A stretch of DNA of 33,036 nucleotides. Source: an uncultured Pelagibacteraceae bacterium. GTDB lineage: Bacteria > Pseudomonadota > Alphaproteobacteria > Pelagibacterales > Pelagibacteraceae. Below the pieces are notes generated by a model. That model had not been told where the DNA came from and did no database searches. It was given only the letters and a program-made list of their open reading frames with translations. This document shows positions 4,104 to 33,036 of the stretch, piece by piece. The position numbers and the translations under genes were made by a program. The stretch spans positions 1 to 33,036 of the forward strand of contig CACFEW010000007.1 of NCBI GenBank assembly GCA_902565385.1, in the 5' to 3' direction. Each line of letters begins with the position of its first letter. Position 1 is the stretch's first letter.

Positions 4104-5132
4104 TTACTTCCAACCAGCGGCAGTCATTACTTCTACTGCAGCAGCCTGATTTTTTCCATAAGAAGCTAACTTAGTTTTCATATCTTGTTTGAAATCTAAT
4201 CCTAAGTTATTTACTACTAATGAACTTGGTGAAACACCGTTAATCATCGGAAACTCAAAAGTGTTGTTAGTAAAATGCTCTTGAGATTGAGGAGTCAGTA
4301 AAAACTCTACAAGCTTGATAGCGTTAGCTTTATTAGGAGCACCTTTGACCAAAGCGGCACAACTAACATTCATGTGTGTTCCTCTATCATTTTGATTAGG
4401 GAAGAAAGCTTTAACTTTCTTAGCTGCTTCTTGTTGCTCTGCACCTTTTTTACCAGACAACATAAGTGCTAGATAATAAGTATTAGCTACAGCAATATCA
4501 GCTTCTCCTGCTGCGACTGCCATAATTTGAGCTCTATCATTACCTGTAGGTGTTCTTGCCATGTTTGCAACAACTCCTTCAGCCCATTCAGCTGTAGCTT
4601 TTTTTCCATTATTTTTAATTAATGATGCTACTAAAGATTTATTATAAATATTGCTAGATTTTCTAATTACTAATCTACCTTTCCACTTAGGATCAGCTAA
4701 ACCTTCATAAGTCATTCCAGATAATTCTGCACCTGTAACTCTCTCCGGCGAATAATAAATTATTCTAGCTCTTTTAGCTATTCCAACCCATTTATTCGTT
4801 CTAAAAGTTTTTGGTACAGCATCTTTGATTGCTGCTGATGTTAAACCACTTTGAAGTGCACCTTTTGCATCCATTGCTCCACATCTTCCAGCATCAGCTG
4901 TAATATATAAGTCAGCAGAAGAATCAGCACCCTCACTTAGAATTCTTTTTTCTAAAGCACCTGATTTTCCGTTTATCAAATTGACTTTGATTCCAGTCAT
5001 ATTTGTAAACTTAGAATAAAGCTCACCATCTGCTTTATAATGTCTTGCATTAAAAACATTTACCTCATTCGCCATCACAACTGATGAGGCAAATAAAGAT
5101 GCTATCAATGCAAAAATTGATATATTTCTCAT
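4104..5132 (-). CDS. fbpA: Periplasmic Fe(III)-binding protein (FbpA type)
   Basis: A 342-residue exported protein that would capture ferric iron in the periplasm and hand it to FbpB/FbpC. A signal peptide (MRNISIFALIASLFASSVVMA) is followed by the mature start NEVNVFNARHY, whose His31-Tyr32 match iron-ligand positions in the family, and the paired tyrosines in NTYYLAL (Tyr218-Tyr219) are the classic Fe-binding pair. Two cysteines (about 83 and 257) could form a disulfide. I chose the ATG at 5132 over one seven codons upstream because GGAG sits 5 bases before it. Two Fur-like palindromes lie 34-68 bases upstream, consistent with iron repression. Confidence 0.93.
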   Translation of the reverse strand: MRNISIFALIASLFASSVVMANEVNVFNARHYKADGELYSKFTNMTGIKVNLINGKSGALEKRILSEGADSSADLYITADAGRCGAMDAKGALQSGLTSAAIKDAVPKTFRTNKWVGIAKRARIIYYSPERVTGAELSGMTYEGLADPKWKGRLVIRKSSNIYNKSLVASLIKNNGKKATAEWAEGVVANMARTPTGNDRAQIMAVAAGEADIAVANTYYLALMLSGKKGAEQQEAAKKVKAFFPNQNDRGTHMNVSCAALVKGAPNKANAIKLVEFLLTPQSQEHFTNNTFEFPMINGVSPSSLVVNNLGLDFKQDMKTKLASYGKNQAAAVEVMTAAGWK

Positions 5133-5165
5133 TATTTCTCCATTCTTCCGCAAGATTTAATTGAG

Positions 5166-10190: not shown

Positions 10191-11810
10191 TTACATATTT
10201 CCATACTTTGGTCCACCACCTCCCTCTGGAGTGACCCAAACTATATTTTGAGAAGGTTCTTTAATATCGCAAGTTTTACAATGAATACAGTTCTGAGCGT
10301 TTATAACAAATTTGTTTATATCGTTTTCTTTTTGAACCTCATAAACTCCTGCTGGACAATATCTTTGTGCTGGTTCGTCATATTTTTCAAGAGTATATTT
10401 TATAGGTAAATCTTTATCTTTTAGCTGTAAGTGCACTGGCTGATTATCCTCATGATTAGTCCCAGTCAAATAAACTGAGCTTGTTTTATCAAAAGTAATT
10501 ACATTGTCAGGTTTAGGATAATCAATTTTTGGCATTTTATCTGCAGGTTTTAAAGTTTCATGATCGGAATGCTTATGTCTTAATGTAAATGGAAATTTTC
10601 CTCTAAATAAAATTTGATCAATTCCTGTAAAAATTATTCCTAAAATTAAACCCCAATTAAAACTAGGTTTTACATTTCTTGCCTGATACAGTTCTTTATA
10701 TAACCAGCTTTTTTTAAATAATTCCTCATATAATGATAAATCTTTTTTGGACTGAATATGTTCATTGATAGCCTCTGCAGCTAAAATTCCACTTTTCATA
10801 GCAGTGTGAGATCCTTTTATTTTTGGCATATTTAATGTTCCCGCATCACATCCAATAAGTAATGCACCTGGCATAAACATTTTTGGTAAACTTTGAATAC
10901 CACCTTCAATTAAAGCTCTAGCGCCATAAGAAATTCTTTTTCCACCTTCTATAATTTTTTTTATTGATGGATGTGTTTTAAATCTTTGAAACTCATCAAA
11001 AGGAGAAAGATGAGGATTTTGATAATCTAAACCTATTACATATCCTAAAAACACTTGTTTGTTCTCAGCATGATAAATAAAACTCCCACCATAAGTGTTA
11101 TTGTCTAAAGGCCATCCAGCTGTATGCATCACTAATCCCTCTTCATGATTTTTTTCATCAATTTCCCAAATTTCTTTAAATCCGATTCCATATTGTTGAG
11201 GATCTTTGTCTTTATTAAGATTAAATTTTTTAATTAATTGTTTTCCTAAATGACCCCGACAACCTTCAGCAAAAACTGTAACCTTGCCTATAAGTTCAAT
11301 ACCTGGTTCAAAACTATCTTTTTTATTTCCTTGTTTATCTATTCCCATGTCCTGAGTAGCTACACCTTTAACCGAGCCATCGTCATTAAATAAAACCTCA
11401 CTAGCTGGAAATCCTGGAAATATCTCTACACCAAGTGTTTCTGCTTGCTCAGCAAGCCATCTACATAAATTTGCAAGACTAATTATATAATTTTTATGAT
11501 TTTTTTGGACAGCGGGTAACAACCACGTTGGCCAATTTAATGATTTTGTTTTTCCTAAAAATAAAAATTTCTCCTTAGTAACTTTTGTTTTTATAGGTGG
11601 ATTTAAATCTTTCCAATTTGGAATTAATTCGTCTAGTGCTCTAGTTTCAAAAACATTTCCACTTAATATATGGGCACCGATCTCAGATGCTTTCTCTAAA
11701 ACACAAATATTTAAATTTGAATTTAATTGTTTCAGTTTAATAGCAGTTGTTAATCCTGATGGTCCTCCACCAACAATTACAACATCATATTCCATTGACT
11801 CTCTGGACAT
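10191..11810 (-). CDS. etfD: Electron transfer flavoprotein-ubiquinone oxidoreductase
   Basis: A 539-residue membrane-associated FAD/[4Fe-4S] protein that passes electrons from reduced ETF to ubiquinone. The N-terminal FAD motif is DVVIVGGGPSGLTTAIKL (about 9-26). The mid-region includes FAEGCRGHLGKQL and GCDAGTLNMPKIKGSHTAMKSG. The C-terminal domain carries the cluster ligands Cys485 and Cys508, 511 and 514 (CIHCKTCDI), ending in the family signature GGGGPKYGNM. The length is normal. It follows etfA by about 21 bases and closes the operon that begins with the dimethylglycine dehydrogenase, so the whole route to the quinone pool is in one transcript. Also called etfQO. Confidence 0.96.
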   Translation of the reverse strand: MSRESMEYDVVIVGGGPSGLTTAIKLKQLNSNLNICVLEKASEIGAHILSGNVFETRALDELIPNWKDLNPPIKTKVTKEKFLFLGKTKSLNWPTWLLPAVQKNHKNYIISLANLCRWLAEQAETLGVEIFPGFPASEVLFNDDGSVKGVATQDMGIDKQGNKKDSFEPGIELIGKVTVFAEGCRGHLGKQLIKKFNLNKDKDPQQYGIGFKEIWEIDEKNHEEGLVMHTAGWPLDNNTYGGSFIYHAENKQVFLGYVIGLDYQNPHLSPFDEFQRFKTHPSIKKIIEGGKRISYGARALIEGGIQSLPKMFMPGALLIGCDAGTLNMPKIKGSHTAMKSGILAAEAINEHIQSKKDLSLYEELFKKSWLYKELYQARNVKPSFNWGLILGIIFTGIDQILFRGKFPFTLRHKHSDHETLKPADKMPKIDYPKPDNVITFDKTSSVYLTGTNHEDNQPVHLQLKDKDLPIKYTLEKYDEPAQRYCPAGVYEVQKENDINKFVINAQNCIHCKTCDIKEPSQNIVWVTPEGGGGPKYGNM

Positions 11811-11831
11811 AATAATTTTTTACAGATTATA

Positions 11832-12785
11832 TTATTTTTGTATAGTGTTTAATTTGTTCAGTTCCTCGATAAATTGAGGTACTGCTTCAAAAAGATCAGC
11901 TTCTAGACCATAGTCTGCAACACTGAAAATTGGAGCTTCACCATCCTTATTGATTGCGACAATCACTTTGCTTTCTTTCATTCCAGCTAAATGTTGAATA
12001 GCACCAGAAATACCAATGGCAATATATAAATCTGGAACTACAACTTTTCCAGTTTGACCCACTTGATGATCGTTGCTTATATATCCGGCATCCACAGCCG
12101 CTCTTGACGCTCCAATAGCAGCATTTAATTTATCAGCAACAGAAGTGATCAATTTAAAATTGTCTCCACTCTGCATTCCTCTTCCACCAGAAACAACCAC
12201 TCTTGCAGTTCCAAGTTCTGGTCTATCTGACTTAATTTCCTCTCTTTTTACAAATTTTGTATTATTAAACTCTTCACTTGGTTCAGCTTTTTCAATTGGT
12301 GCAGATCCGCCTGAACTCTCACATGGATCAAAAGAAGTTGGTCTAATAGTTATACATTTTTTTGGATCTTTGCTTTTAACAGTTGCAAATGCATTTCCAG
12401 CATAAATTGGTCTTAAAAATGTATCTGCAGAAATTACCTTAATAATATCACTGACTTGAGATGTATCTAAAGAAGCTGCAATCCTTGGCATCAAATTTTT
12501 ACCAAATGTATTAGCTGAACAAACAACATGTGAATAGTTTTCTGCCAATTTCACGATTACTGGTGTAAAATTTTCTGCTACAAAGTTTTCGTAATGATCT
12601 GCCTCTACTTGAATTACTTTTTTGACTAATGGTAACTCTGATAATTTTTTTGCTGCATCACCACAGTTATTACCGATAATTACAGCATGAAGATCTGTAT
12701 CCATTTGAGAAGCTGCAGTCACGGCATTCAGTGTAAAAGGTTTAAGCTCTTTGTTGTTATGTTCTGCAACTAATAAAACTGACAT
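11832..12785 (-). CDS. etfA: Electron transfer flavoprotein alpha subunit
   Basis: A 317-residue subunit that binds FAD in its C-terminal half. It shows VVSGGRGMQSGDNFKLI, AIGASRAAVDAGYISNDHQVGQTGK and LYIAIGISGAIQHLAGMK, all classic EtfA FAD-site segments, and the NKDGEAPIFSVADYG ending. It forms a heterodimer with EtfB and carries electrons from acyl-CoA and methylamine-type dehydrogenases to ETF-QO. The start codon overlaps the etfB stop (TAATG), consistent with equal production of both subunits. Confidence 0.97.
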   Translation of the reverse strand: MSVLLVAEHNNKELKPFTLNAVTAASQMDTDLHAVIIGNNCGDAAKKLSELPLVKKVIQVEADHYENFVAENFTPVIVKLAENYSHVVCSANTFGKNLMPRIAASLDTSQVSDIIKVISADTFLRPIYAGNAFATVKSKDPKKCITIRPTSFDPCESSGGSAPIEKAEPSEEFNNTKFVKREEIKSDRPELGTARVVVSGGRGMQSGDNFKLITSVADKLNAAIGASRAAVDAGYISNDHQVGQTGKVVVPDLYIAIGISGAIQHLAGMKESKVIVAINKDGEAPIFSVADYGLEADLFEAVPQFIEELNKLNTIQK

Positions 12786-13534
12786 TATATTACTTTAGCC
12801 TCATTTTTTAATTTTTGCACTAGCTCAGCCACACTTTTTACTTTTATTCCCGCTTTTCTTTTTGGTGGCTCTTCGACCTTAATTTGCTCGATTCTTGGTG
12901 ATGTATCTACTCCTAAATCTGACGCATTTATCTGCTCAATAGGTTTTTTTTTAGCTTTCATTATGTTTGGTAAAGATGCATATCTTGGTTCATTGAGTCT
13001 TAAATCACAAGTTACAATAGCAGGAATATTGATCTCTATTGTCTCTAATCCTTCGTCAATCTCTCTTGTAACTTCAAGTTTTTTATCTTTAATCTCAATC
13101 TTTGAAGCAAATGTTGCTTGAGGCCAGTTTAGTAAAGCACTTAACATTTGACCTGTTTGATTACAATCATCATCAATTGCTTGTTTTCCCATAAAAACTA
13201 AATCTGGTTTTTCTTTTTCAACAATTTTTTGTAATAATTTAGAAACGGCTAAAGGTTCTAAAATACCATCAGCTTTAATAAGAATGCCTCTATCAGCTCC
13301 AACCGCTAATGCTTTACGAACAGTTTCTTGAGCTTTATCTTCTCCAACACTTACTGCAACTACTTCAGTTGCTTTTCCCGACTCTTTGATCTTTACCGCC
13401 TCCTCGATTGCATTATCGTCAGGTGGATTGGTGGACATCTTAACATTATCGGTTACTACACCAGTATTATCCTCTTTAACTCTAATTTGAACATTGTAAT
13501 CAATTACTCTTTTTACTGCGACTAAAATTTTCAT
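12785..13534 (-). CDS. etfB: Electron transfer flavoprotein beta subunit
   Basis: A 249-residue subunit. It begins [19 protein letters not shown], has the AMP-binding domain with [36 protein letters not shown], and the family segment [22 protein letters not shown] that includes the recognition loop for partner dehydrogenases. The length is standard. Its ATG overlaps the stop of the upstream dehydrogenase gene, and its stop overlaps the etfA start. The dehydrogenase is therefore the most likely electron donor, although ETF normally also serves fatty-acyl-CoA dehydrogenases. Confidence 0.97.
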
Positions 13535-15966
13535 TAGGCTCTCAATAGTTTATTTTCAGCATCGTATGGACTTTCTTCTACTATTGTAGCCTCATACATT
13601 TTTCCAAGAATATCAACTTTAAGTTTTTCTCCAATATTTGCTAAATCAGGTTTCACCATGGCTAAGGCAATAGATTTATCTAATCTAAATCCATATTCCC
13701 CTCCTGTTGCTCGCCCAACGACTTTGTCATCTTTATAAATTGGATTGTTACCTAAAACATCTGAGTCTGTTGTGTCATGAACCTCTAGTGTTACTAATTT
13801 ATTATCAAAACCCTTTTCTCTCCATTTGTTTAGTGCATCAAGTCCTATGAAATTACCCTTGTTTGGATGAATAAATCTGTCTAGGCCAGACTCATAAGGT
13901 GAATACTCAATTGATAGTTCAGTTCCCACAAGTTTATAAGATTTTTCTACTCTTAAACTGTTCATCGCTCTGATGCCAAAAGGTTTAAGACCGAGATCCT
14001 TGCCTGCTTCCATTAATTTATCAAAAATATGGTTTTGATATTCAATTGGGTGATGTAATTCCCAACCAAGTTCACCAACAAAATTTACCCTCATAGCATT
14101 TACTGGAGCATATCCAACATTAACATTTTTTGCAGTTAACCATTTAAAGTTTTCATTTGAAAAATCGTCAGTTGAAACTTTTTGCATAAGTTCTCTAGCT
14201 TTTGGGCCTGCTACAACAAGCACACCTGTACTATTTGTTAAGTCCTCAAATATAACTGAACCATCGGTTGGCATCCATTTTTGAATCCAATCATGGTCTA
14301 ATCTCAAATTCGCTCCAGCTGAAACTAAATAATAACTATTTTCAGCTTCTTTCATGATTGTAAACTCAGAGTGAACACCACCTTTAGTATTTAGCGCATG
14401 ACACAAATTAATTCTTCCGATTTTTTTTGGAAGTTTGTTAGCTACTAAGTAGTCTAAAAATTCCTCAGCTTTTGGACCCTTAATTCTACATTTTGCAAAG
14501 GCTGTCATATCCAAAAGTCCAACATTTTTTTTAACATTTTCACATTCTTTCTTAATTGCATCAAACCATTTTGATCTTCTAAATGACCAATGATCTTTTT
14601 GTTCCATGCCATCTGTTGCAAAAAAGTTTGGTCTTTCCCATCCAAATTTTTGTCCAAAAACAGCACCAAGATTTTTCATTCTTTCATAACAAGGAGATGT
14701 TCTTAAAGGTCTAGCAGCTGGTCTTTCTTCATCAGGATAATGAACAATAAAAACATGACTGTAAGCCTCCTCATTTTTTGCTTTAAGATAAGATTTTGTT
14801 GCATAATTTCCGTAACGTCTTGGTTCAACACCAAGCATATCAATCGACGGTTCACCATCAATAATCCATTCTGCTAATTGCCAGCCCGCTCCACCTGCTG
14901 CAGTTATTCCAAAACTATGTCCCTCATTAATCCAAAAATTTTTAAGTCCCCAGGCAGGACCAACAATAGGATTACCATCTGGCGTATAACATATTGCACC
15001 GTTATAAACTTTTTTCACTCCAACTTCTCCAAATGCTGGAACTCTATGTATTGCTCCCTCAATGTGTGGAGCAAGTCTATCTAAATCTTCTTGAAACAAT
15101 TCATATTCAGAATCTTTTGAGGGACCTTCTACATAACACGCTGGTGCACCATCTTCATACGGACCTAATATTAATCCACCAGCCTCTTCTCTCATGTACC
15201 ATCTACTATCACTATCTCTTAATACACCCATCTCTGGCAGACCTTCTTTTTTTCTTTTTTGTATTTCTGGATGCGGTTCAGTTACAATATATTGATGTTC
15301 CACAGGAATAACTGGAATATCTAATCCAACCATTTCACCAGTTTGTCTTGCAAAATTTCCTGAACATGAAATGACATGTTCACATTCAATTGATCCTTTG
15401 TCTGTTTCAACAATCCATCCCTCTTTAGTTTGTCTCATTGATAACACAGTTGTGTTTCTATAAATCTCAGCTCCTCTGTTCCTAGCACCTGTGGCAAGTG
15501 CCTGAGTTAAGTCTGCAGGTTGGATGTATCCATCTTCTGGGTGTTGAATTGCTCCAACTAAATCATCAGTATGACAAAGCGGCCAAATTTCTTTAACTTG
15601 TTGAGGTGTCAAAAATTTTACATCAACACCAATTGTTTTAGCTACACCAGCATATTGATGATACTCATCCATTCTATCTTTGGTGCTAGCTAAACGGATA
15701 TTTGAAACAATACTGAAACCAACATTCTTACCAGTCTCTTCCTCTAACTTTTTATAAAGATTTACTGCATACTTATGAAGTTGACCAACAGAATAGCTCA
15801 TATTAAAAAGAGGTAACAAACCTGCTGCATGCCAAGTTGAGCCTGAGGTTAATTCTTTTCTTTCAACTAAAACAACATCTGACCAACCTTTTTTTGCTAA
15901 ATGATAAAGAGCGCTTACTCCAACAACTCCTCCACCGACTATGACGACTTTTGCTTTAGATTTCAT
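13534..15966 (-). CDS. Dimethylglycine dehydrogenase-type FAD/THF demethylase
   Basis: An 810-residue enzyme with a DAO-type FAD domain ([21 protein letters not shown] at about 7-27), the [11 protein letters not shown] motif where His46 is the likely covalent FAD attachment site, a middle FAO-type domain (about 375-430), and a C-terminal GcvT-like folate domain (about 430-810) with [20 protein letters not shown]. Known dimethylglycine and sarcosine dehydrogenases of this architecture oxidise an N-methyl group and deliver it to THF as 5,10-methylene-THF. Dimethylglycine is the favoured substrate because of SAR11-like context, but sarcosine is possible. It is first in an operon with etfB, etfA and ETF-QO (TAATG overlap with etfB), consistent with electrons leaving through ETF. 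Confidence 0.88.
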
Positions 15967-18720: not shown

Positions 18721-19449
18721 ATGAAATTTTCTCTTGAAATAGGCCCTCAGACAGATCTTGATACAGTACCTCAAGTAAAAGATGTTTATATCACAATGCT
18801 TCCAGGGGGTGACTATAGAGAAACAGCTCAACAGGCAGTTGAGTTAGTTAAAAAAGGTTTTAATCCTGTTCCTCATTTTCCTGCAAGGTCAATGCTGGAT
18901 GAAAAACAACTAAAAGATTATGTTTCTAGGTGTAAAGATGGTGGTGTTAAACAAGTTTTAGTAATTGGTGGCGGGAGAGAACCAATGGGAAAATTTGATA
19001 GCTCGTTTCAACTTTTAGAGACTGGTTATTTTGAGAAGATGACAATAGGAATTGCTGGACACCCTGAGGGGAGTCCTGATATATCCGACTCAGATTTAGA
19101 AAAAGCTATGATAGATAAAAAGCCTTATGCTGATTACATCGTAACCCAATGGTTATTAGATCCCCAGCCTATTATAGATTTTGTTTCTAAACAAAGTGTA
19201 CCAGTGCATGTGGGAATTACTGGGCCTCTAAAAATATCTAGCTTAATAAAATTTGCTAATATCGTTGGTGCAAAAAATTCTCTAAATTTTCTTAAATCTA
19301 ATTTTAGTAAGGCGTTAGATTTATTAAAACCTAAAGACCCTAATGATTTAATTGGGAAAGTTAAATCGCATACTGATTTCTTCCACATTTATACATTCGG
19401 CGGCTTGAAGGAAACAAACAAGTGGTTGAAGGAGAATGGTTATGTCTAA
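18721..19449 (+). CDS. Short methylenetetrahydrofolate reductase-like protein
   Basis: A 242-residue TIM-barrel-type protein with MTHFR features: FSLEIGPQTD at the start of strand 1 (matching the Glu-bearing motif of MetF), NPVPHFPARS, VLVIGGGREPMG, IGIAGHPEGSPD (the GYPEGHP-type motif) and HIYTFGG near the end. Full-length bacterial MetF is about 290 residues, so this belongs to a shorter class. It would interconvert 5-methyl- and 5,10-methylene-THF. The next gene, a GcvT-like methyltransferase, overlaps its end by 8 bases, suggesting that methyl groups placed on THF by that protein are oxidised here to methylene-THF. Confidence 0.8.
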   Translation: MKFSLEIGPQTDLDTVPQVKDVYITMLPGGDYRETAQQAVELVKKGFNPVPHFPARSMLDEKQLKDYVSRCKDGGVKQVLVIGGGREPMGKFDSSFQLLETGYFEKMTIGIAGHPEGSPDISDSDLEKAMIDKKPYADYIVTQWLLDPQPIIDFVSKQSVPVHVGITGPLKISSLIKFANIVGAKNSLNFLKSNFSKALDLLKPKDPNDLIGKVKSHTDFFHIYTFGGLKETNKWLKENGYV

Positions 19450-20800
19450 AGAATTTGACTATACTAAACTAAAGCATGTTACTTCTGTTGATCAGTCAGA
19501 TCGAAAAGTACCATACAATTTAAGACAAAGTGGGCCTACAAAAGTTGAAATGTTAATTTCAACAAGAGTAAGAAAATCACCATATTGGCATTTATCAATG
19601 CAAGCAGGTTGTTGGAGAGCAACTGTTTATAATCGAATTTATCATCCTAGGGGATATGTAAAACCTGAAGATGGTGGTGCAATGGTTGAGTATGATGCAA
19701 TTGTAAATCATGTAACTATGTGGAATGTTGCTGTTGAAAGACAGATCCAAGTAAAGGGTCCTGATGCAGAAAAATTTGTTGATTACGTGATAACTCGAGA
19801 TGCAACAAAAATCTCTCCGATGAGAGCAAGATATGTAATTTTATGTAACGCTTACGGAGGAGTTTTAAACGATCCAATACTTTTAAGAATTTCAAAAGAT
19901 GAATTTTGGTTTTCTTTATCAGACTCGGACATAGGAATGTATTTACAAGGCGTTAATGCAGACGGTAAATTTAATTGCACCATTGAAGAAATTGATGCAT
20001 GTCCAGTTCAAATTCAAGGGCCTAAATCAAAAGCGCTTATGAAAGATTTGCTAGGTGATCAGGTTGATTTAGAAAATATGCCTTTCTATGGTTTAGCTGA
20101 AGTTAAGGTTGCCGGAAGAAGTTGTGTTATCTCTCAATCAGGTTTTTCAGGTGAAGCTGGATATGAAATATATTTAAGGAATGCAACTTTATATGCCGAT
20201 GAGATGTGGAATGCTGTTCTTGAAGCTGGAAAAAAACACCAGCTAATGGTTATTGCCCCTGCTCACCACAGAAGAATTCAAGCTGGGATTCTTTCTTGGG
20301 GTCAAGATATGGATCAACAACATAACCCTTTCCAGTGTAATTTAGGTTATCAAGTTTCTTTATCAGGAAAAGGAGAATGGAAAAAAACTTCTGATTACGT
20401 AGGAAAAAAAGCTCTTGAAAAAATGGGCGCTGAAATCAAAGCTGGAAAAAAACCTTATAAGTTACAGTTGGTTGGTCTTGAGTTAGGAGGAAAACCAATT
20501 GATGATTATGCACCAGATTTTTGGTTGATATCTAATGCAGATGGTGGTGATCCAGTTGGTTTTGTAACATCACCATGGTGGCATCCTGAAAAGAAAACTA
20601 ATATTGCTATGGGATATGTTCCATTTGATGGAACTTTAAATGCCAATGGCTTTCCTAAAGGTAAAGTTGGAACTAAATTTAAAGTTCATTTACCAGAGAA
20701 ATATTCAGATAAACCAGGAACACCTGTTGATGCCGTTATAGTTGATATTCCATTTAAGGAATCTTATAACGCTAACACAAGAGAAGTGGTATCAGGTTAA
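19442..20800 (+). CDS. GcvT-family THF-dependent methyltransferase/demethylase
   Basis: A 452-residue GcvT-fold protein. Recognisable parts are SPYWHLSMQAGCWRATVYNRIYHP, VERQIQVKGPDAEKFVDYVITRD (the GcvT domain start), VQIQGPKSKALMKDLL, ISQSGFSGEAGYEIYL and a C-terminal IAMGYVPFDGTLNANGFPKG. It is longer than DMSP demethylase DmdA (about 370) and resembles it only in the shared fold. The demethylated substrate is unknown. The ATG at 19442 is preferred over 19436 because GGAG lies 7 bases ahead of it but only 1 base ahead of the other. Coupling to the MetF-like gene supports a role in methyl-to-THF transfer. Confidence 0.85.
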   Translation: MSKEFDYTKLKHVTSVDQSDRKVPYNLRQSGPTKVEMLISTRVRKSPYWHLSMQAGCWRATVYNRIYHPRGYVKPEDGGAMVEYDAIVNHVTMWNVAVERQIQVKGPDAEKFVDYVITRDATKISPMRARYVILCNAYGGVLNDPILLRISKDEFWFSLSDSDIGMYLQGVNADGKFNCTIEEIDACPVQIQGPKSKALMKDLLGDQVDLENMPFYGLAEVKVAGRSCVISQSGFSGEAGYEIYLRNATLYADEMWNAVLEAGKKHQLMVIAPAHHRRIQAGILSWGQDMDQQHNPFQCNLGYQVSLSGKGEWKKTSDYVGKKALEKMGAEIKAGKKPYKLQLVGLELGGKPIDDYAPDFWLISNADGGDPVGFVTSPWWHPEKKTNIAMGYVPFDGTLNANGFPKGKVGTKFKVHLPEKYSDKPGTPVDAVIVDIPFKESYNANTREVVSG

Positions 20801-20946: not shown

Positions 20947-21489
20947 ATGTTTGCTGAATTTTTAAATATAATTTTTAAATCTATAAAATTAGATAAAACA
21001 CTTTATAGTGATAATAAAAATTTTGGTGAAGCTGCGATATATTTTGCGGGTTTGATAATGATATTAGATGGTGTAGCTGGAGCTGTGGCTGCAAATACTG
21101 TGGTAAAAACAGCTATAGGAATGTCTGGTCTTACGGCAATTTTAACATGGTTCATTTGGGCAATTTTTATTTATGTAATTGGTGTAAAATTATTTCCAGA
21201 TAAACAAACAAAAGTGCCTTTTAAAAAAGTTCTGGTAGCAGTTGGTTTTGCTCATTCACCAGGTTTACTAAGATTTTTTGCATTAACCCCCGAATTAATG
21301 ATACCAATCATTTTTCTTACTCAATTCTGGATTTTTGCAAGTTTAATTATTTCAACAAAGCAAATCTTAAATTTAAAATCTAATTTTAAAGCGTTTGGCA
21401 TAATATTTTTATCATTTTTAATTATTGCTTTTTTATCAATATCTTTTGTTATGAGTAGAATGAATGCTTTACCAATAAATAGTATCTAA
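20947..21489 (+). CDS. Yip1-domain integral membrane protein
   Basis: A 180-residue membrane protein with about five helices and the Yip1-type layout: a short amphipathic start (FLNIIFKSIKLDKTLY), then AAIYFAGLIMILDGVAGAVA, LTWFIWAIFIYVIGVKLFP, the polar FKKVLVAVGFAHSPGLLRF loop, and two more hydrophobic segments. The GFAHSPGLLR motif is typical of bacterial Yip1 family members, whose function is unknown. It ends in a 4-base convergent overlap with the zinc-ribbon gene on the other strand, leaving no room for a terminator. Confidence 0.8.
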   Translation: MFAEFLNIIFKSIKLDKTLYSDNKNFGEAAIYFAGLIMILDGVAGAVAANTVVKTAIGMSGLTAILTWFIWAIFIYVIGVKLFPDKQTKVPFKKVLVAVGFAHSPGLLRFFALTPELMIPIIFLTQFWIFASLIISTKQILNLKSNFKAFGIIFLSFLIIAFLSISFVMSRMNALPINSI

Positions 21490-21656
21490 ATTGGAAAGAT
21501 TGTTTTCGAAACCCTGCATGATTTACAAATTTTAAATCCAGTCAAAATTAAATTTTGGGTAACACTTTCATCAGTTTTTTTACATTCATCACAGATATCA
21601 TTTAATTCATCAGTGTTTGTGTTATGCTGATCTTTAATATTATCATCTTCAATCAT
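21486..21656 (-). CDS. 56-residue zinc-ribbon-like protein
   Basis: A small acidic protein, with an Asp/Asn-rich first 20 residues, then ICDECKKTDE and, after an 18-residue spacer, FKICKSCRV. The two CxxC pairs (Cys22/25 and Cys44/47) are the layout of a zinc ribbon. The ATG at 21656 lies inside the end of the DUF3726 gene (8-base overlap) and the stop is TAG. The whole region between neighbours is used, and the reading ends in a 4-base convergent overlap with the Yip1 gene. It is the last member of the unit starting with the M19-like gene. The function is unknown. Confidence 0.75.
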   Translation of the reverse strand: MIEDDNIKDQHNTNTDELNDICDECKKTDESVTQNLILTGFKICKSCRVSKTIFPI

Positions 21657-22260
21657 TATCAGTTAAAGCCGCTCCTGCTGCCCCTTTTTTTAAACTTTCT
21701 GTTTCTTCAACAAAAGTTTTTTCTGATAATTGATATAAACTTTTCCAATCTTGCTCGGTAAAGTTGTCATTATTTTCTAAAATTTTTACCTCTACGTTGT
21801 TTGCAATATTTGGACAATTTTTATTTAACAAGTTTGTGGAAATATTAACATTTATATTTAATAGAAACTCATTTTTTTCAAACTTAAAAAAAATTTTTTT
21901 ACCGATAACCTCTGAGCTTCTACTAAGAAAGGGTAAAAATAGTAATGGGTATGCAACTTTGGAAAAATTAATAGTTTTTATTTTTTCAATTTTTTCAATT
22001 TGATCTAAAAAACTTACACCTAAAATAATTGGGCAGTAAGAAAATTCAGAGTTTTCATTATTTTGATTAATTAGATTAAGACTCTCAAACTTTTTGTCTT
22101 TTTTTTCATTTAAATATTCATTTAAATTTTTAACTCCTTCAAAGTTAAACATTTCTAGTAATCTTACACTTTTTCCAACTTCTTCGCTTATTCCCCAAGA
22201 ATAACCTAATGCTCTACTCGCGCGTTTAGAGGTTGTTTCAATTTCACTCAAAGATTTCAT
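21649..22260 (-). CDS. DUF3726 family protein
   Basis: A 203-residue soluble protein. SLSEIETTSKRASRALGYSWGISEEVGKSVRLLEMFNFEGVKNLNEYL at the start matches the DUF3726 pattern (helical, 'RA-RG-G-WG-AEE-G' type). The C-terminus reads TESLKKGAAGAALTDND, also typical of the family. The middle (about 95-150) is beta-rich and poorly recognisable. No catalytic role is known to me. It sits 9 bases after the 550-residue gene and overlaps the zinc-ribbon gene, so all are probably made together. Confidence 0.75.
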   Translation of the reverse strand: MKSLSEIETTSKRASRALGYSWGISEEVGKSVRLLEMFNFEGVKNLNEYLNEKKDKKFESLNLINQNNENSEFSYCPIILGVSFLDQIEKIEKIKTINFSKVAYPLLFLPFLSRSSEVIGKKIFFKFEKNEFLLNINVNISTNLLNKNCPNIANNVEVKILENNDNFTEQDWKSLYQLSEKTFVEETESLKKGAAGAALTDND

Positions 22261-22269
22261 AAAATTTAA

Positions 22270-23922
22270 TCAACGATAGACCCAATGCTGATTATAATCT
22301 TTTAATTCATGCGGAAGTGGTGCTCCTTGAAACATACAAATTCTTAACCACTTGTCTGACTTAGGATCAAATTTTAGTGCACCAAAAAAAGATAATTTTA
22401 ATCGTAGCATATCGATTGGGACAACGTTTTCATTAATTGTATTATCTTGAATTTCAGCATATGGAAATTTTTCAACGATAAATGCGCGTCTTACAACATG
22501 TCTTAAATCTGCATTATACATTAAAAATCTATCAATAGTTAAATCATCTTTACATGAAATTAACTGATCATATAGTTTTTTAATATCTCTAGCAATTGCA
22601 AGAGGTTGTTCTAATTCTGCACCTCCTTCCTCAAAACGATCTGCATACCTGGGCTCTTCTTTATTTTTAGAAATAAACCAAAAATTTCTTAAATTTGATT
22701 TATCTTTGAAATCCATTTTTAGAATATCTGGATATCTTTGCTTTAAAATATTTTTAAGATCTAAAACTGTTCGTTCTGTGGGAATTCTAAAATACTTTTC
22801 CTCATCTGAGCTCATTTTTTTTATTAATGGCTTAACAATTTTATCAAAAGGTTCCATCATCATAGACACGATATACTCAATAGTTTCTTCACAAGTTTCT
22901 TCCTCTAACCATAAATATATTTGATTGAAAGGATATGGAGTTGAAAAATCTAATTGATCTTCGATAAATTCTAAAAATTTTTTTACATTAAGAAGTAGTG
23001 AATTTATTTTTTTTATTTGAAATTCACTTTCAGAATTCCAACTGGTAATATTTTTTAAGGAATCTTTGACACATTTTTTGAATAAATCTGCATCTTTTGA
23101 ATTCACATTTTTAATTTCTCTAATTTCTTTTAATGCGACTTCTCTTGATAAAATCCAATTATTTAACAGGGTAGGATGATTTACAATAAAAGGTGCCATT
23201 CCAAGTCCAGTTGAATTTCCAATGCCAAGGTTTCTACAAATTTTTTTGTCTAAATTAACTGCTTTCTCTGGATTTTTATTTTTTGCTACATGATTAACTT
23301 GGTCAAAAGTGAATTGCCTTACTAAATAGACTAACATCATCTCTAATCTAAAAGGTCCATTAATTTCCACCCTATTTTTAATTCTAAATCGATCTGCTAA
23401 ACCAAACTTTCCAGAACCATAAACAGCGGTAGTTCTATATAAGTATCCAACTTTTTCTAATAAATCTAAATCTGGCTGATTACCCTCGCTTAACTTTTCA
23501 ACTACGTGATTAAAAACCCTTACCGACTTATTTGCTCTAGATAAAGTTAATTCTTTGTATGAAAGTCTACCAACCTCTTGCCTTGGGACTTCATTCTTCA
23601 ATCTTTCAATATCTTTTTTTGAGGGAACCCCGTCATGCAAAGTAAAAGCAGCGTCCCATTTTGTTGCAATAACTCTATCTGATCTATCATTATCATCTAT
23701 CTTGTTAGCAAAACAAACTAATGAGTAAACTCTTTTATCTTTTTTGAAAGAATATATCGCTACGCCATATCCACCAGAGTCTAAGTTGAATAAATCTCTG
23801 TTGTATTCCCAATCTTTGAATTCATCTAAAAAACTTCTTAGAAATGACAATTTAGATTGATGAAAAGACCCTAGTCTAGACAATTTCATTATTATGTTTG
23901 GATCTCTTAATTCGACTTTCAT
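22270..23922 (-). CDS. Unrecognised 550-residue soluble protein
   Basis: I do not recognise a family. The protein has no signal peptide or membrane helix. It starts MKVELRDPNIIMKLSRLGSFHQ. A probable alpha/beta N-terminal part (about 1-130) includes GGYGVAIYSFKKDKRVYSLVCFANKID and the hydrophilic DDNDRSDRVIATKWDAAFTLHDG, followed by RQEVGRLSYKELTLSRANKSVRVFNHVVEKL. The conserved-looking YRTTAVYGSGKFGLADRFRI (about 161-181) leads into a mainly helical rest with several Trp/Tyr-rich segments. The gene begins 3 bases after the M19-like stop and ends 9 bases before DUF3726, which ties it to them. It is clearly a real, intact gene. Confidence 0.85.
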   Translation of the reverse strand: MKVELRDPNIIMKLSRLGSFHQSKLSFLRSFLDEFKDWEYNRDLFNLDSGGYGVAIYSFKKDKRVYSLVCFANKIDDNDRSDRVIATKWDAAFTLHDGVPSKKDIERLKNEVPRQEVGRLSYKELTLSRANKSVRVFNHVVEKLSEGNQPDLDLLEKVGYLYRTTAVYGSGKFGLADRFRIKNRVEINGPFRLEMMLVYLVRQFTFDQVNHVAKNKNPEKAVNLDKKICRNLGIGNSTGLGMAPFIVNHPTLLNNWILSREVALKEIREIKNVNSKDADLFKKCVKDSLKNITSWNSESEFQIKKINSLLLNVKKFLEFIEDQLDFSTPYPFNQIYLWLEEETCEETIEYIVSMMMEPFDKIVKPLIKKMSSDEEKYFRIPTERTVLDLKNILKQRYPDILKMDFKDKSNLRNFWFISKNKEEPRYADRFEEGGAELEQPLAIARDIKKLYDQLISCKDDLTIDRFLMYNADLRHVVRRAFIVEKFPYAEIQDNTINENVVPIDMLRLKLSFFGALKFDPKSDKWLRICMFQGAPLPHELKDYNQHWVYR

Positions 23923-23925
23923 ACT

Positions 23926-24891
23926 TTAAATATTTTTATAAAAATTATACCAATTGTTACCTAATATCCCATTAGTTTCTTCTTCGGAAAATCCAACTTT
24001 TCTTAATCCCTTCTCTATATTAAAAAAACCTCTAGCATCCTCAAACCAATCTGGTTGTCTAGGAAAGCCAGGTTTGTTCTTTGAGCCTTCTCCATAATTT
24101 TTATTTTTAGACCAGGTACCGTTCCTCATCCATTCTACTATTTCATCAGGCTGATTCAAACATAAGTCAGATCCAATACCAATATTTTTGATATTCATTA
24201 TATCTGAAGTTCTAGCAATCATTTCACAAAAGCTTTCTAAAGTACAATTAGTATTATTCTTTAAATGGTGAGGATATAAAGAAAAACCCAAAATACCTCC
24301 ACTATCACTTAAAACTTTTAATAGTTCGTTAGATTTATTTCTTTTAGCAGAATGCCAAAAACTTGGGTTAGCATGAGTGATTGCAATTGGTTTCTCACTT
24401 ATTTCAATTGCATCTAATGTACTTTTTTCAGCAGAATGAGACATATCTATAACTATTCCAACTCTGTTCATTTCTTTAATGACTTCACGTCCAAAATTAG
24501 TTACTCCACTATCAATTTTTTCATAACAGCCAGTTGCTAGAAGAGATTGGTTATTATAAGTTAATTGCATAAAACGACATCCAAGTTTATGCACTTTTTC
24601 TACTAAAGATATATCATCCTCAATTGGCGAGCAGTTTTGAAATCCAAAAAAAATTGCAGTTTTTTTTTCTAATTTAGCTTTTTCAATATCTTTGAAATTA
24701 GTGCCTTGAAAAATTAAATCTGAATTTTTCTCAAAAAGTTTTTGCCACTTTTTAATTTCATTAAGAAACTCATTATAATCTTCATGATAGACAATCGTTA
24801 CATGAACAGCATCTAGCTCAGCTTTTCTATTTATCTCAAAAACTTCTCTTGACCAATTACAATATTGTAAATTATCAATCTTAAATTTCAT
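23926..24891 (-). CDS. M19 membrane-dipeptidase-like protein with altered metal site
   Basis: A 321-residue TIM-barrel hydrolase-like protein. It resembles M19 (renal dipeptidase) in IVIDMSHSAEKSTLDAIEIS (His152), PIAITHANPSFW (His173) and IGIGSDLCLNQPD (Asp242), the counterparts of His198, His219 and Asp288 of the human enzyme. The first metal motif HxD is replaced by LQYCNW (8-13). The bridging Glu appears as Gln85 in FFGFQNCSPIEDD. There is no signal peptide, so it is cytoplasmic. A catabolic role on a small amide or amino acid derivative is possible. I start at the ATG at 24891, since the longer reading needs a TTG. It is first in a four-gene unit and divergent from purE. Confidence 0.83.
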   Translation of the reverse strand: MKFKIDNLQYCNWSREVFEINRKAELDAVHVTIVYHEDYNEFLNEIKKWQKLFEKNSDLIFQGTNFKDIEKAKLEKKTAIFFGFQNCSPIEDDISLVEKVHKLGCRFMQLTYNNQSLLATGCYEKIDSGVTNFGREVIKEMNRVGIVIDMSHSAEKSTLDAIEISEKPIAITHANPSFWHSAKRNKSNELLKVLSDSGGILGFSLYPHHLKNNTNCTLESFCEMIARTSDIMNIKNIGIGSDLCLNQPDEIVEWMRNGTWSKNKNYGEGSKNKPGFPRQPDWFEDARGFFNIEKGLRKVGFSEEETNGILGNNWYNFYKNI

Positions 24892-24989
24892 GAGTTTAAT
24901 TTTATTAAACCATATCAATATGTATTTGAAATTCTATTAATTTATTGAAATTTTAACAATTTTTTGAAATAAAGTTTGAATAATAACTC

Positions 24990-29940: not shown

Positions 29941-30528
29941 CTATTTATTTTCGTAACCAAACTCTAATGCTGCATCAGTAATAGAATGGTACAACGACTC
30001 TCCAAAACTTCTTAATGTGAATAACCTTACTTTAAATGGTTTATTATTTAGTAAGTCTATTGTGAACGCAATATTATTATAAAGAGAATTTATCGAATTA
30101 TTTTTATTTAATTCATCAAAATTAAATGGTGATCCTTTTTTTAAAACTTCTATTACATAATTGCCTTCTATATCAATTACAGCTCTTGAGTGGGATAAAT
30201 CAGTAATTGCAAAATCTATTTCTTTACATTTTGAAGAAATATCATTGATTAAATCTTTTTTGGAAGAGACCAATAACCAATTTTTTGGGCCATTCCATAA
30301 AATTCTTGTGTTATCATTAAAACTCACATTTAAAGGAGTATCTTTCAGTTTTAAACCGTCAATATCTAAACTTTCAATCGGAATATTAGAATTTTTGAAT
30401 TGTACAATTTGCACAATCAACAAATTTTTTTTCTCTGTGATTTTTAAAAGGTCGTCTCCTTTTTTGTCTTCAAAGTCTCCAAATTGTCCTTGATGGTGAA
30501 CATTGGCTAGTGCAGAAATTAAACTCAT
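29941..30528 (-). CDS. soxG: Sarcosine oxidase gamma subunit
   Basis: A 195-residue SoxG subunit of heterotetrameric sarcosine oxidase. It begins MSLISALANVHHQGQFGD and contains WNGPKNWLLVSS, DLSHSRAVIDIEGN, VLKKGSPFNFD and FTLRSFGESLYHSITDAALEFG, patterns shared by SoxG proteins and the YgfZ/GcvT-related fold. It helps form the folate-binding core with SoxA. Its ATG overlaps the soxA stop by 4 bases (ATGA), the normal end of a soxBDAG cluster. Confidence 0.92.
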   Translation of the reverse strand: MSLISALANVHHQGQFGDFEDKKGDDLLKITEKKNLLIVQIVQFKNSNIPIESLDIDGLKLKDTPLNVSFNDNTRILWNGPKNWLLVSSKKDLINDISSKCKEIDFAITDLSHSRAVIDIEGNYVIEVLKKGSPFNFDELNKNNSINSLYNNIAFTIDLLNNKPFKVRLFTLRSFGESLYHSITDAALEFGYENK

Positions 30529-33036
30529 GATCTAACTCGTTCACCTTTTGGATCAACATAATGCGAAGACACTATCTCGACTGGGATTACTTTATTTTTT
30601 AGAGGAGACATAACAAATAACTTTTCTCCTATCATATTCTTACCATCCTTAAGAATTGCTAGAGAAAATGGATTGTCATGTTCAACACTCCAGCATGAAG
30701 CTGAAATATAACCTAATTTTGGGTTTGGAAGTGGTGCATTTGAATCTTTAACTAAATGAGATCCCTCTGGAATACTTGTTTTTTTATCTAATGGGACAAC
30801 ACCAACAATTTTTTGTCTATCTTCAGCTGCAAAAGCTTTTCTTGATAAAGATCTTTTTCCAATAAAATCTTTCTTTTTACTTAATAGTCCCTCAAGTGAA
30901 TTGTCATAAGGAATAGTTCTACCATCAAGCTCTGAACCTGCAACATGCCCCATCTCAATTCTTAAGGTTGATAGTGCTTCTGTTCCATATGGTTGAATTC
31001 CAAACTCTTCTCCAGCTTCTATTATTTTTTCCCACATAAAATATCCATTGTCTGACTCTACATTGACTTCGTATGCAAGTTCACCAGAAAATGAAATTCT
31101 AAAAATTTTTGCTTTTACTCCAAATAAATCAGCTTCCATGTAACCCATAAAAGGAAGTCCCTCATTCGTCACATCAGTATTTGGAAAAAGTTTTTTTAAT
31201 ACTTCTCTTGATTTTGGTCCAGCAATCGCAGCTCCTGCCCACTGTTCAGTCGTTGAAACTACATTAACATTTAGCTCTGGCCAAACTAGTTGTAGATAAT
31301 ATTCTAAATGTGATAAAACATTGGCAGCTTGAGCAGTTGTTGTAGTCATATGGTAATGATTTTCTGATATTCTTGTTGTTGTTCCATCATCCATAACAAT
31401 TCCATCTTCTCTCAACATCACACCATATCGTGCTTTACCGACTGGTAATTTTAACCATGCATTTGTGTAAACTCTATTTAGAAACTCTGCTGCATCTGGA
31501 CCTTTAATATCTATTTTACCTAAGGTGGTAACGTCACAAACACCAACATTAGTTCTTACATTTTTAGCCTCTCTTTTTGATGCCTCAAATAAATTTTCAT
31601 CACCACGTTTGTAATACCTTGGTCTTAACCATATACCCGCATCAACAAAGACTGCGTTATTTTTTTCATGCCATGAATGCATTGGAGATTTTCTTGTTGG
31701 TTTTGAATGTTTTCCTACTTCCCTTCCAACGATTGCTCCAATAGAAACTGGTGAATAAGGCGGTCGAAAAGTTGTATGCCCAACTGCTGGAACAACTTTA
31801 TTCTCAATTTTCGATACTAATTGTAAACCGTTAAGATTACTTGTCTTACCTTGGTCAGTAGCCATACCAAGTGTAGTGTATCTTTTTACATGTTCAATAG
31901 ACCTATACCCTTCTTTAAGAGCTATCTCTATGTCGGAAACTGCAACATCATTTTGGAAATCTAAAAATCTTTTGTAGTTTTTTCCCTTTGGTAAGGGCAC
32001 ACACCAAAATTTATCATGTACTGTAGATTTCTTTTCAACAACATTAGGAAAAGAAACCTTGTTCTCATTATTTGTTATTTTTTTTGATAATAGGTTTCCT
32101 TTTTCAAATGAGTCTTTTAATGTCTCCTCTAAAGTGTAAATTCCGTTTGCAGCACCTAAGGTTTTTTCATTTTGTTTAGATATGCTGGGAACAAATGCAT
32201 CAATATCTTCATTGAATTTTGTTTTATTTCCAGATTGTGATGCCAAATGAATTGTAGGTGTCCAAAACCCAGAAACACAAATACAATCACACTCAATATT
32301 TTCAATCGATCCAAGTTCTTCTTTATTATCTGAAATTTTAGCTACGTCAGCTGATTTTACTTTTTTATATCCTTGAGCAGCTACAACTACATATGAATTT
32401 TTAATATTAATATTCATATTTTTTGCTTCTTCGATAATCTCTGATTGAGGCTCTTTTCTTGTATCTAAAATTATTGGATCAACACCATTCTTTTTGAATT
32501 CAATGGCTGTTTCATAACCACTATCATTGTTTGTAAAGATAAGCGGTTTTTTTCCAACTAATACACCATAGACTTTCATGTATTCTTTAGCGGCTGAAGA
32601 TAACATTACACCTGGGGTATCATTATTGCCAAATACAATGGGTCTTTCAATTGATCCAGATGAGATTAATACTTCTTTTGCCCTAATATACCAAAGTCTT
32701 TGTTTTGGATGATATTTTTTTGTTTTTGGTAAATGGTCACTAATTCTTTCAGACATAACCAACATGTTATGATCATAATAACCAAAAACTTGAGATCTGT
32801 TTTTTACAGTAACATTAGGCATTTCTTTAAGCTCTGAAATGATACTATCTGCCCACTCTTTTCCTGATTGATTACCAATATTTACTTCACTAGTTAATAA
32901 AGTTCCTCCAAATCTTGCTTTGTCTTCAGCAAGAATAACTTTTGCACCATTTTTTGCAGCTGAGTAAGCGCTTGCTAATCCCGAAGGACCTGATCCTGTT
33001 ATTAGCACATCACAATATTCATATTTATGCTCATAT
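30525..33036 (-). CDS. soxA: Sarcosine oxidase alpha subunit, 5' end missing
   Basis: About 836 residues are in the window, and the reading stays open to the right edge. A GTG at 33008 that could be taken as a start is internal (YEYCDVLITGSGPSG is contiguous with the N-terminal part). Full-length SoxA is about 1000 residues. Present are the NAD(P)-type Rossmann region (VLITGSGPSGLASAYSAA), the SIGAIVGREVGKHSKPTRKSPMHSWHE linker, and the C-terminal GcvT-like folate domain (MEADLFGVKAKIFRISFSGELAYEV). The complex oxidises sarcosine to glycine with formation of 5,10-methylene-THF. soxB and soxD are expected beyond 33036. Confidence 0.95.
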   Translation of the reverse strand, partial: YEHKYEYCDVLITGSGPSGLASAYSAAKNGAKVILAEDKARFGGTLLTSEVNIGNQSGKEWADSIISELKEMPNVTVKNRSQVFGYYDHNMLVMSERISDHLPKTKKYHPKQRLWYIRAKEVLISSGSIERPIVFGNNDTPGVMLSSAAKEYMKVYGVLVGKKPLIFTNNDSGYETAIEFKKNGVDPIILDTRKEPQSEIIEEAKNMNINIKNSYVVVAAQGYKKVKSADVAKISDNKEELGSIENIECDCICVSGFWTPTIHLASQSGNKTKFNEDIDAFVPSISKQNEKTLGAANGIYTLEETLKDSFEKGNLLSKKITNNENKVSFPNVVEKKSTVHDKFWCVPLPKGKNYKRFLDFQNDVAVSDIEIALKEGYRSIEHVKRYTTLGMATDQGKTSNLNGLQLVSKIENKVVPAVGHTTFRPPYSPVSIGAIVGREVGKHSKPTRKSPMHSWHEKNNAVFVDAGIWLRPRYYKRGDENLFEASKREAKNVRTNVGVCDVTTLGKIDIKGPDAAEFLNRVYTNAWLKLPVGKARYGVMLREDGIVMDDGTTTRISENHYHMTTTTAQAANVLSHLEYYLQLVWPELNVNVVSTTEQWAGAAIAGPKSREVLKKLFPNTDVTNEGLPFMGYMEADLFGVKAKIFRISFSGELAYEVNVESDNGYFMWEKIIEAGEEFGIQPYGTEALSTLRIEMGHVAGSELDGRTIPYDNSLEGLLSKKKDFIGKRSLSRKAFAAEDRQKIVGVVPLDKKTSIPEGSHLVKDSNAPLPNPKLGYISASCWSVEHDNPFSLAILKDGKNMIGEKLFVMSPLKNKVIPVEIVSSHYVDPKGERVRS

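Follow-up and report, generated by a model that had tools for sequence, protein, structure and literature searches.

The window, a stretch of 33,036 nucleotides (contig CACFEW010000007.1, positions 1 to 33,036, GenBank assembly GCA_902565385.1), originates from SAR11. Among the matches listed, the nearest named contigs are from uncultured Pelagibacteraceae, with 97-98% identity over a protein of 550 residues, here called U550. The gene for U550 is part of a four-gene unit on the minus strand, which is considered here for a role in the catabolism of homarine (N-methylpicolinate). The genes of the unit are:

23926..24891, minus strand: M19-like amidohydrolase, 321 amino acids (PF01244, E 4.3e-71; ATG start)
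22270..23922, minus strand: U550, 550 amino acids, family not recognised (no significant Pfam, NCBIfam or PDB match)
21649..22260, minus strand: DUF3726 protein, 203 amino acids (PF12525, E 2.3e-21)
21486..21656, minus strand: small Cys4 (CxxC...CxxC) gene, 56 amino acids, overlapping the DUF3726 gene (no significant Pfam match)

The genes are joined by gaps of 3 and 9 bases and then by an 8-base overlap, exactly as the initial annotation had given them, and its remark that only the M19-like and DUF3726 members are recognisable agrees with Pfam. An alternative TTG start at 24918 is possible for the M19-like gene. A convergent gene at 20947-21489 shares 4 bases with the small Cys4 gene. The ratio of nonsynonymous to synonymous substitution rates (dN/dS), calculated against three relatives (L089, L092 and L093), is 0.036-0.128 across the four genes and 0.050-0.095 for the small Cys4 gene.

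SAR11 loci for comparison were the best 80 of at least 570 U550 relatives, all of them from SAR11 or labelled 'Alpha proteobacterium'; they were chosen by U550, and some of the contigs stop short. The M19-like gene was present in all 80 and DUF3726 in 79, the exception (L160) ending just past U550. The small Cys4 gene was found in 72, with the 8-base overlap with DUF3726 in 67 of these; purE was found in 75, and mgdC together with mgdD in 57. Because the order and close spacing of the genes are repeated across SAR11, the 8-base overlap recurs as well and dN/dS is low, the arrangement is more than chance: the four genes form a genuine unit that SAR11 conserves. U550 is carried by 68 of 197 SAR11-family genomes (45 of the 77 of good quality). 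When 18 SAR11-family genomes were compared, both the M19-like and the DUF3726 gene were present in 7/7 genomes with U550 and in 0/11 without it, which is read as gain and loss of a block. In the assembly of one single-cell genome a stop interrupts U550 (L163:10001-11644). None of 60 pattern matches in viral contigs was a U550 relative.

The link between U550 and DUF3726 extends beyond SAR11. In a sample of 385 alphaproteobacterial genomes, U550 homologues, some of them partial or split, were found in 53 and PF12525 in 43, all of which also have U550. All 43 DUF3726 copies lie directly downstream of U550 in the same orientation, at a distance of 15-122 bases from the U550 match, and several of the 10 U550 genomes without a PF12525 match have split or divergent copies. 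A phylum sample of 398 genomes, which overlaps the class sample, contained U550 in 29 genomes; DUF3726 was present in 27 of these and in no others, and 29 of 29 DUF3726 copies were located 12-102 bases downstream of U550. DUF3726 is thus tied to U550, and the two proteins appear to work as a pair. U550 and its partners also occur in some beta- and gammaproteobacteria.

Gene neighbourhoods were compared in 50 further loci, of which 40 came from genomes of the class, including two from SAR11, and 10 from plasmids. The M19-like gene lay no more than 3.5 kb from U550 and in the same orientation in 43 of them and DUF3726 was adjacent in 38 (BLAST); a gene of the Ldh_2 (type-2 malate/lactate dehydrogenase) family was found in 22, an aldehyde dehydrogenase gene in 20, a LysR gene in 13 and a betaine-type transporter (BCCT or ProXWV) in 15, while looser clustering gave aldehyde dehydrogenase in 22 and BCCT in 11. 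The M19-like/U550/DUF3726 unit was found in several alphaproteobacterial orders. On plasmids, the copiotrophs Phaeobacter, Tritonibacter, Shinella and Aminobacter carry a co-directional operon of aldehyde dehydrogenase, M19-like ('membrane dipeptidase'), U550, DUF3726 and Ldh_2 genes with a divergent LysR gene. A BCCT gene is inserted between M19 and U550 in Phaeobacter and Tritonibacter, and glycine betaine ABC genes (ProXWV) are part of the Shinella and Aminobacter operons. A betaine-type transporter is also located immediately upstream of the M19-like gene in two SAR11 loci (L160 and L167). Elsewhere the arrangement is looser: M19 was not detected in five of the 50 loci (L040, L045, L069, L079 and L080), in Pseudomonas and in G161 the M19 gene runs opposite to U550, and Mesorhizobium has U550 and a neighbour without M19. 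Bosea, Variovorax and Sinorhizobium hold a remote branch, 25-27% identical, with IclR, U550, an unnamed gene in the place of DUF3726, and M19. The small protein, with its two CxxC pairs, had been judged to fit a partner or adaptor. BLAST with one 55-residue query at E 1e-6 found it at no non-SAR11 locus among the 50; it was seen in SAR11 only and is rejected as a universal partner. One SAR11 locus without the Cys4 gene (L168:12266-14675) has DUF3726 followed directly by a ureohydrolase-like gene and an aldehyde dehydrogenase gene.

The initial annotation had stated that the 550-residue protein matches nothing known to it, and the searches made here agree. The window protein had no significant match in Pfam (best E 0.078) or NCBIfam (best E 0.16). 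When 44 U550 members were searched singly against Pfam, stray matches to one or two members each were obtained, the best (E 0.00076) being a Borrelia family in 1 of the 44. No PDB sequence matched at E 1, a U550 profile reached 11 PDB sequences up to E 10, of which the best (0.058) is a coiled coil, and profile comparison with hhalign gave no relation to Ldh_2 or to DUF3726. The predicted model of the 550 residues has a mean predicted local distance difference test score (pLDDT) of 75.9 and a predicted template modelling score (pTM) of 0.81, and is weakest in conserved loops. No fold was assigned from it (Foldseek best E 0.34; VIA best Z 3.9), and a relative may have been missed on account of these weak loops and the length of the protein. 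Across the 44 sequences 31 columns are invariant, many of them Arg and Gly. Low confidence in the conserved loops of the model would be expected if a partner or a ligand orders them.

The DUF3726 protein gave a confident model (pLDDT 88.2). In VIA-align its 15 best entries, which we take from their names to be Ldh_2 proteins, had Z 9.1-10.7 with a root-mean-square deviation of 3.2-5.6 A over 155-177 residues, the next entry having Z 4.8; VIA-align re-aligns Foldseek matches only, and Foldseek's own best E for the model was weak (0.034). The proteins of known structure that share the predicted fold include YiaK (1nxu), ureidoglycolate dehydrogenase (4h8a) and piperideine-2-carboxylate reductase (1wtj). 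Model residues 1-164 cover about 270 residues of most Ldh_2 targets; being about 100 residues shorter over this span, DUF3726 seems to lack an internal part. Comparison of profiles from 36 DUF3726 and 16 Ldh sequences with hhalign gave a weak match over the N-terminal 63 columns (49% probability, E 1.7e-4), which fell to 3% with SAR11 rows only; the best PDB sequence found with the DUF3726 profile (E 0.67) was not an Ldh_2 protein. In Ldh_2 enzymes SHG is a catalytic motif and GTNP a motif of the nucleotide site. HG and GTNP, invariant in the 16-sequence Ldh alignment, are missing from both DUF3726 alignments. On the predicted model, DUF3726 is an Ldh_2 fold stripped of its catalytic and nucleotide motifs. 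Over the diverse set its best conserved part is the C-terminal tail, GAGAGLxDND, which is unordered in the model.

The M19-like protein matches the profile of PF01244 (Peptidase_M19) with 240.1 bits over residues 17-318, and its best solved relative is PDB 2i5g (an amidohydrolase; E 8.4e-57). The binuclear site of canonical M19 enzymes is built from an HxD motif and a bridging Glu, among other ligands. It had been noted initially that the protein lacks most canonical metal ligands; this holds for HxD, which is absent from the N-terminus of 17 aligned members, and for the bridging Glu (Glu in 3id7), replaced by Q85 in all of them, whereas two His and one Asp are retained (H152, H173 and D242). 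Cys122 and Glu124 are invariant in the aligned members. This pattern points to a distinct subfamily and not to a dead dipeptidase.

About 5 kb from the M19-like gene, two further genes were identified:

30525..33008, minus strand: mgdC, N-methylglutamate dehydrogenase (Mgd) large subunit (TIGR01372), truncated by the window end
29941..30528, minus strand: mgdD, Mgd small subunit (TIGR01375, E 6.3e-15, under the cut-off)

Both genes of this segment (29941-33008) match the soxA/soxG subfamily models below cut-off; for mgdC the TIGR01372 score is 1038 bits against a cut-off of 1164, a shortfall due to the window end cutting the gene. The window MgdC is 68.7% identical to the copy in genome G030 (L223), with which it forms a clade of 9 rows (support 100/100), and 42-43% identical to a second SAR11 copy, from which it stands apart. 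The G030 cluster is flanked by gmaS and mgsABC on one side and by tmm on the other (gene names read by eye), and because the window MgdC groups with this copy, the genes are called mgdCD. The copies that adjoin the clusters of Phaeobacter, Shinella and L067 belong to a sister clade of SAR11 mgdC and are not claimed as Mgd. Further upstream in G207, tdm, a betaine-type ABC transporter, tmm and formate-tetrahydrofolate ligase were read by eye. Among the SAR11-family genomes tested, a MgdC orthologue (identity 73% or more) was found in 40 of 44 with U550 and in 5 of 20 without it (p 2e-7).

For homarine an operon, homABCDER, has reportedly been described (Ferrer-Gonzalez et al. in Nat Microbiol 11:1531, 2026) with five structural genes and a LysR gene, with N-methylglutamate as product and with occurrence in Rhodobacterales, SAR11 and SAR116. 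Our literature search found nothing under homABCDER, and nothing on DUF3726. The reported gene number matches the set on the Phaeobacter, Tritonibacter, Shinella and Aminobacter plasmids, and occurrence in Rhodobacterales and SAR11 as well as the tie to N-methylglutamate dehydrogenase are common to hom and the U550 unit. In the SAR11 genus of the window the locus differs in that it lacks orthologues of the aldehyde dehydrogenase, Ldh_2 and LysR genes and has the Cys4 gene in addition. With mgdCD in the window, an N-methylglutamate dehydrogenase is available for the product. PMC13390433, citing Ferrer-Gonzalez 2026, states that Mgd takes part in homarine catabolism, and according to PMC12817926 R. 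pomeroyi quickly assimilates homarine. On this evidence the unit is probably the SAR11 form of the homarine catabolic module (probability roughly 0.68); we infer both its identity with hom and each individual enzyme step. The guess of the initial annotation that a small nitrogen compound is used goes well with the setting, which is that of catabolism of small N-methylated compounds (betaine transporters, N-methylglutamate dehydrogenase, one-carbon genes). Its suggestion of an undescribed pathway is not supported, since the unit most likely belongs to the operon reported in 2026 and the pathway is probably already in print. As far as searched, the new points are the DUF3726 fold, the tight U550-DUF3726 pairing, the reduced SAR11 arrangement with the Cys4 gene and the full chemical proposal.

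Were N-methylglutamate the product, homarine would have to lose ring carbon 6. In the proposed route U550 and DUF3726 would cleave the N-methylpyridinium ring oxidatively at the C5-C6 bond, in the manner of TgnAB, to give 2-(N-methylformamido)-5-oxopent-2-enoate, a 5-carbon aldehyde acid whose nitrogen carries methyl and formyl groups. The aldehyde dehydrogenase would oxidise the C5 aldehyde, the M19-like amidohydrolase would remove formate as a deformylase or amide hydrolase, and an Ldh_2-family reductase, for which several other bacteria have a dedicated gene and this SAR11 genus would use a stand-in, would reduce the resulting ketimine (enamine/imine) to N-methylglutamate, which Mgd would turn into glutamate and methylene-tetrahydrofolate. 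An imine reductase of the Ldh_2 type fits because the family holds delta1-piperideine-2-carboxylate reductase (1wtj, among the DUF3726 fold matches). The best models for the Phaeobacter aldehyde dehydrogenase, those of 2,5-dioxovalerate and alpha-ketoglutaric semialdehyde dehydrogenase (478 and 474 bits, both below cut-off; next 385), fit as well, since the same C5 skeleton is required. The released formate could be taken up by formate-tetrahydrofolate ligase, whose gene (read by eye) adjoins mgdA in G207, and by the product of purU, annotated by the Shinella operon. U550 with DUF3726 is left over once the other steps are assigned and is proposed as the ring-opening enzyme, with U550 as catalytic subunit. 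A more specific version, which we advance tentatively and at less than even odds, is that the two represent a new two-subunit class of N-methylpyridinium ring-opening enzymes, in which U550 has an unsolved fold, its active site is completed by the conserved C-terminal tail of DUF3726, DUF3726 has lost its own active site, and the pathway of SAR11, in reduced form, is completed by the Cys4 protein together with non-orthologous dehydrogenases.

The proposed route resembles the trigonelline pathway (TgnA-E), in which TgnAB cleaves the ring between C5 and C6, TgnA being a luciferase-like flavin monooxygenase that acts with an FMN (flavin mononucleotide) reductase. By analogy it would be that pathway shifted to the picolinate isomer, with the same logic of C5-C6 cleavage to an N-methylformamido aldehyde, an aldehyde dehydrogenase and a formate-releasing hydrolase. 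The two differ in that U550 has no match to TgnA-type families and that no flavin reductase is prominent among the recurrent neighbours. Among the osmolytes of algae homarine is abundant, and SAR11 cells are some of the commonest in the ocean; if the assignment is true, U550/DUF3726 would be a compact marker for homarine breakdown, by which metagenomes could show its users, and, with a dehydrogenase fold recast as partner to an enzyme whose own fold is unknown, the chemistry of ring opening can be tested directly.

Several observations weigh against homarine as the substrate. M19, adjacent DUF3726, Ldh_2 and aldehyde dehydrogenase genes occur jointly in only 12 of the 50 class and plasmid loci, and no cofactor motif was recognised in U550. 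None of the 80 SAR11 loci had a best match to the operon-type aldehyde dehydrogenase, Ldh_2 or LysR references (three had a weak ALDH2-type match). An operon-type aldehyde dehydrogenase, 54-55% identical, is located inside the operon in G030 and G259, whereas the genus of the window has no close one (best 31-38% in G000, G207 and G297), and both Ldh_2 genes that G207 has share no more than 35% identity with the operon type; either other dehydrogenases stand in or the SAR11 product differs. Within the genus of the window the association with MgdC is not significant (40/44 against 3/5, p 0.11), so shared ancestry may explain much of the overall association, and Mgd also serves the use of methylamine. 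The Bosea, Variovorax and Sinorhizobium branch has other transporters. On Sinorhizobium pSymB (L039:9223-21168) the distant U550/unnamed gene/M19 set is accompanied by an ABC transporter, an aminotransferase, a succinate-semialdehyde dehydrogenase and two RidA genes, and possibly acts on a different substrate.

The Sinorhizobium set also bears on a second reading, by which the substrate is a different N-methylated pyridine or heterocyclic betaine, such as trigonelline or proline betaine, U550/DUF3726 being a general ring-opener whose product is set by the neighbouring dehydrogenases. A trigonelline pathway would end in succinate semialdehyde, the betaine-type transporters are not specific, and the trio may serve several substrates; the link to N-methylglutamate dehydrogenase and the relation of the aldehyde dehydrogenase to C5 semialdehyde enzymes nevertheless suit homarine better than a 4-carbon product, and we regard this reading as unlikely. 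Lower still do we place the suggestion of the initial annotation that the unit has an accessory role in the demethylation of glycine betaine/dimethylglycine. In its favour, the M19-like protein has its best solved relative in 2i5g, which is probably the P. aeruginosa M19 protein mentioned there, and the suggestion draws on dimethylglycine-dehydrogenase-like, electron transfer flavoprotein (ETF) and GcvT-like genes within the window and on a dimethylglycine-dehydrogenase-like gene near U550 in Phaeobacter. Those window genes are, however, separate transcription units, M19, DUF3726 and U550 vary together among SAR11 genomes (7/7 against 0/11), and we know of no demethylation step that requires an aldehyde dehydrogenase, an imine reductase and U550. 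Salvage of dipeptides or similar amides by a true M19 dipeptidase is suggested by the Pfam family name and is very improbable: dipeptide use was rejected on the replacement of HxD and the bridging Glu in 17 of 17 aligned members, and in the nine plasmid loci that carry annotation (L035 has none) the neighbours include no gene labelled a peptide transporter.

Other parts of the window also contain genes related to one-carbon metabolism. At 18721-20800 a methylenetetrahydrofolate reductase-like gene is followed by a DmdA-like gene of the GcvT family (232 bits against a cut-off of 410 for dimethylsulfoniopropionate demethylase). A similar pair adjoins a dimethylglycine-dehydrogenase-like gene in G030 (L224; named by eye), and the pair in the window may be an undescribed demethylase pair. 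One minus-strand run at 10191-15966 contains a gene for a demethylating dehydrogenase of the flavin adenine dinucleotide (FAD)/GcvT type and genes read as etfB, etfA and ETF-ubiquinone oxidoreductase. The gene at 4104-5153 encodes an ABC-type substrate-binding protein with sub-cut-off matches to 2-aminoethylphosphonate-binding families, with permease and ATPase genes alongside.

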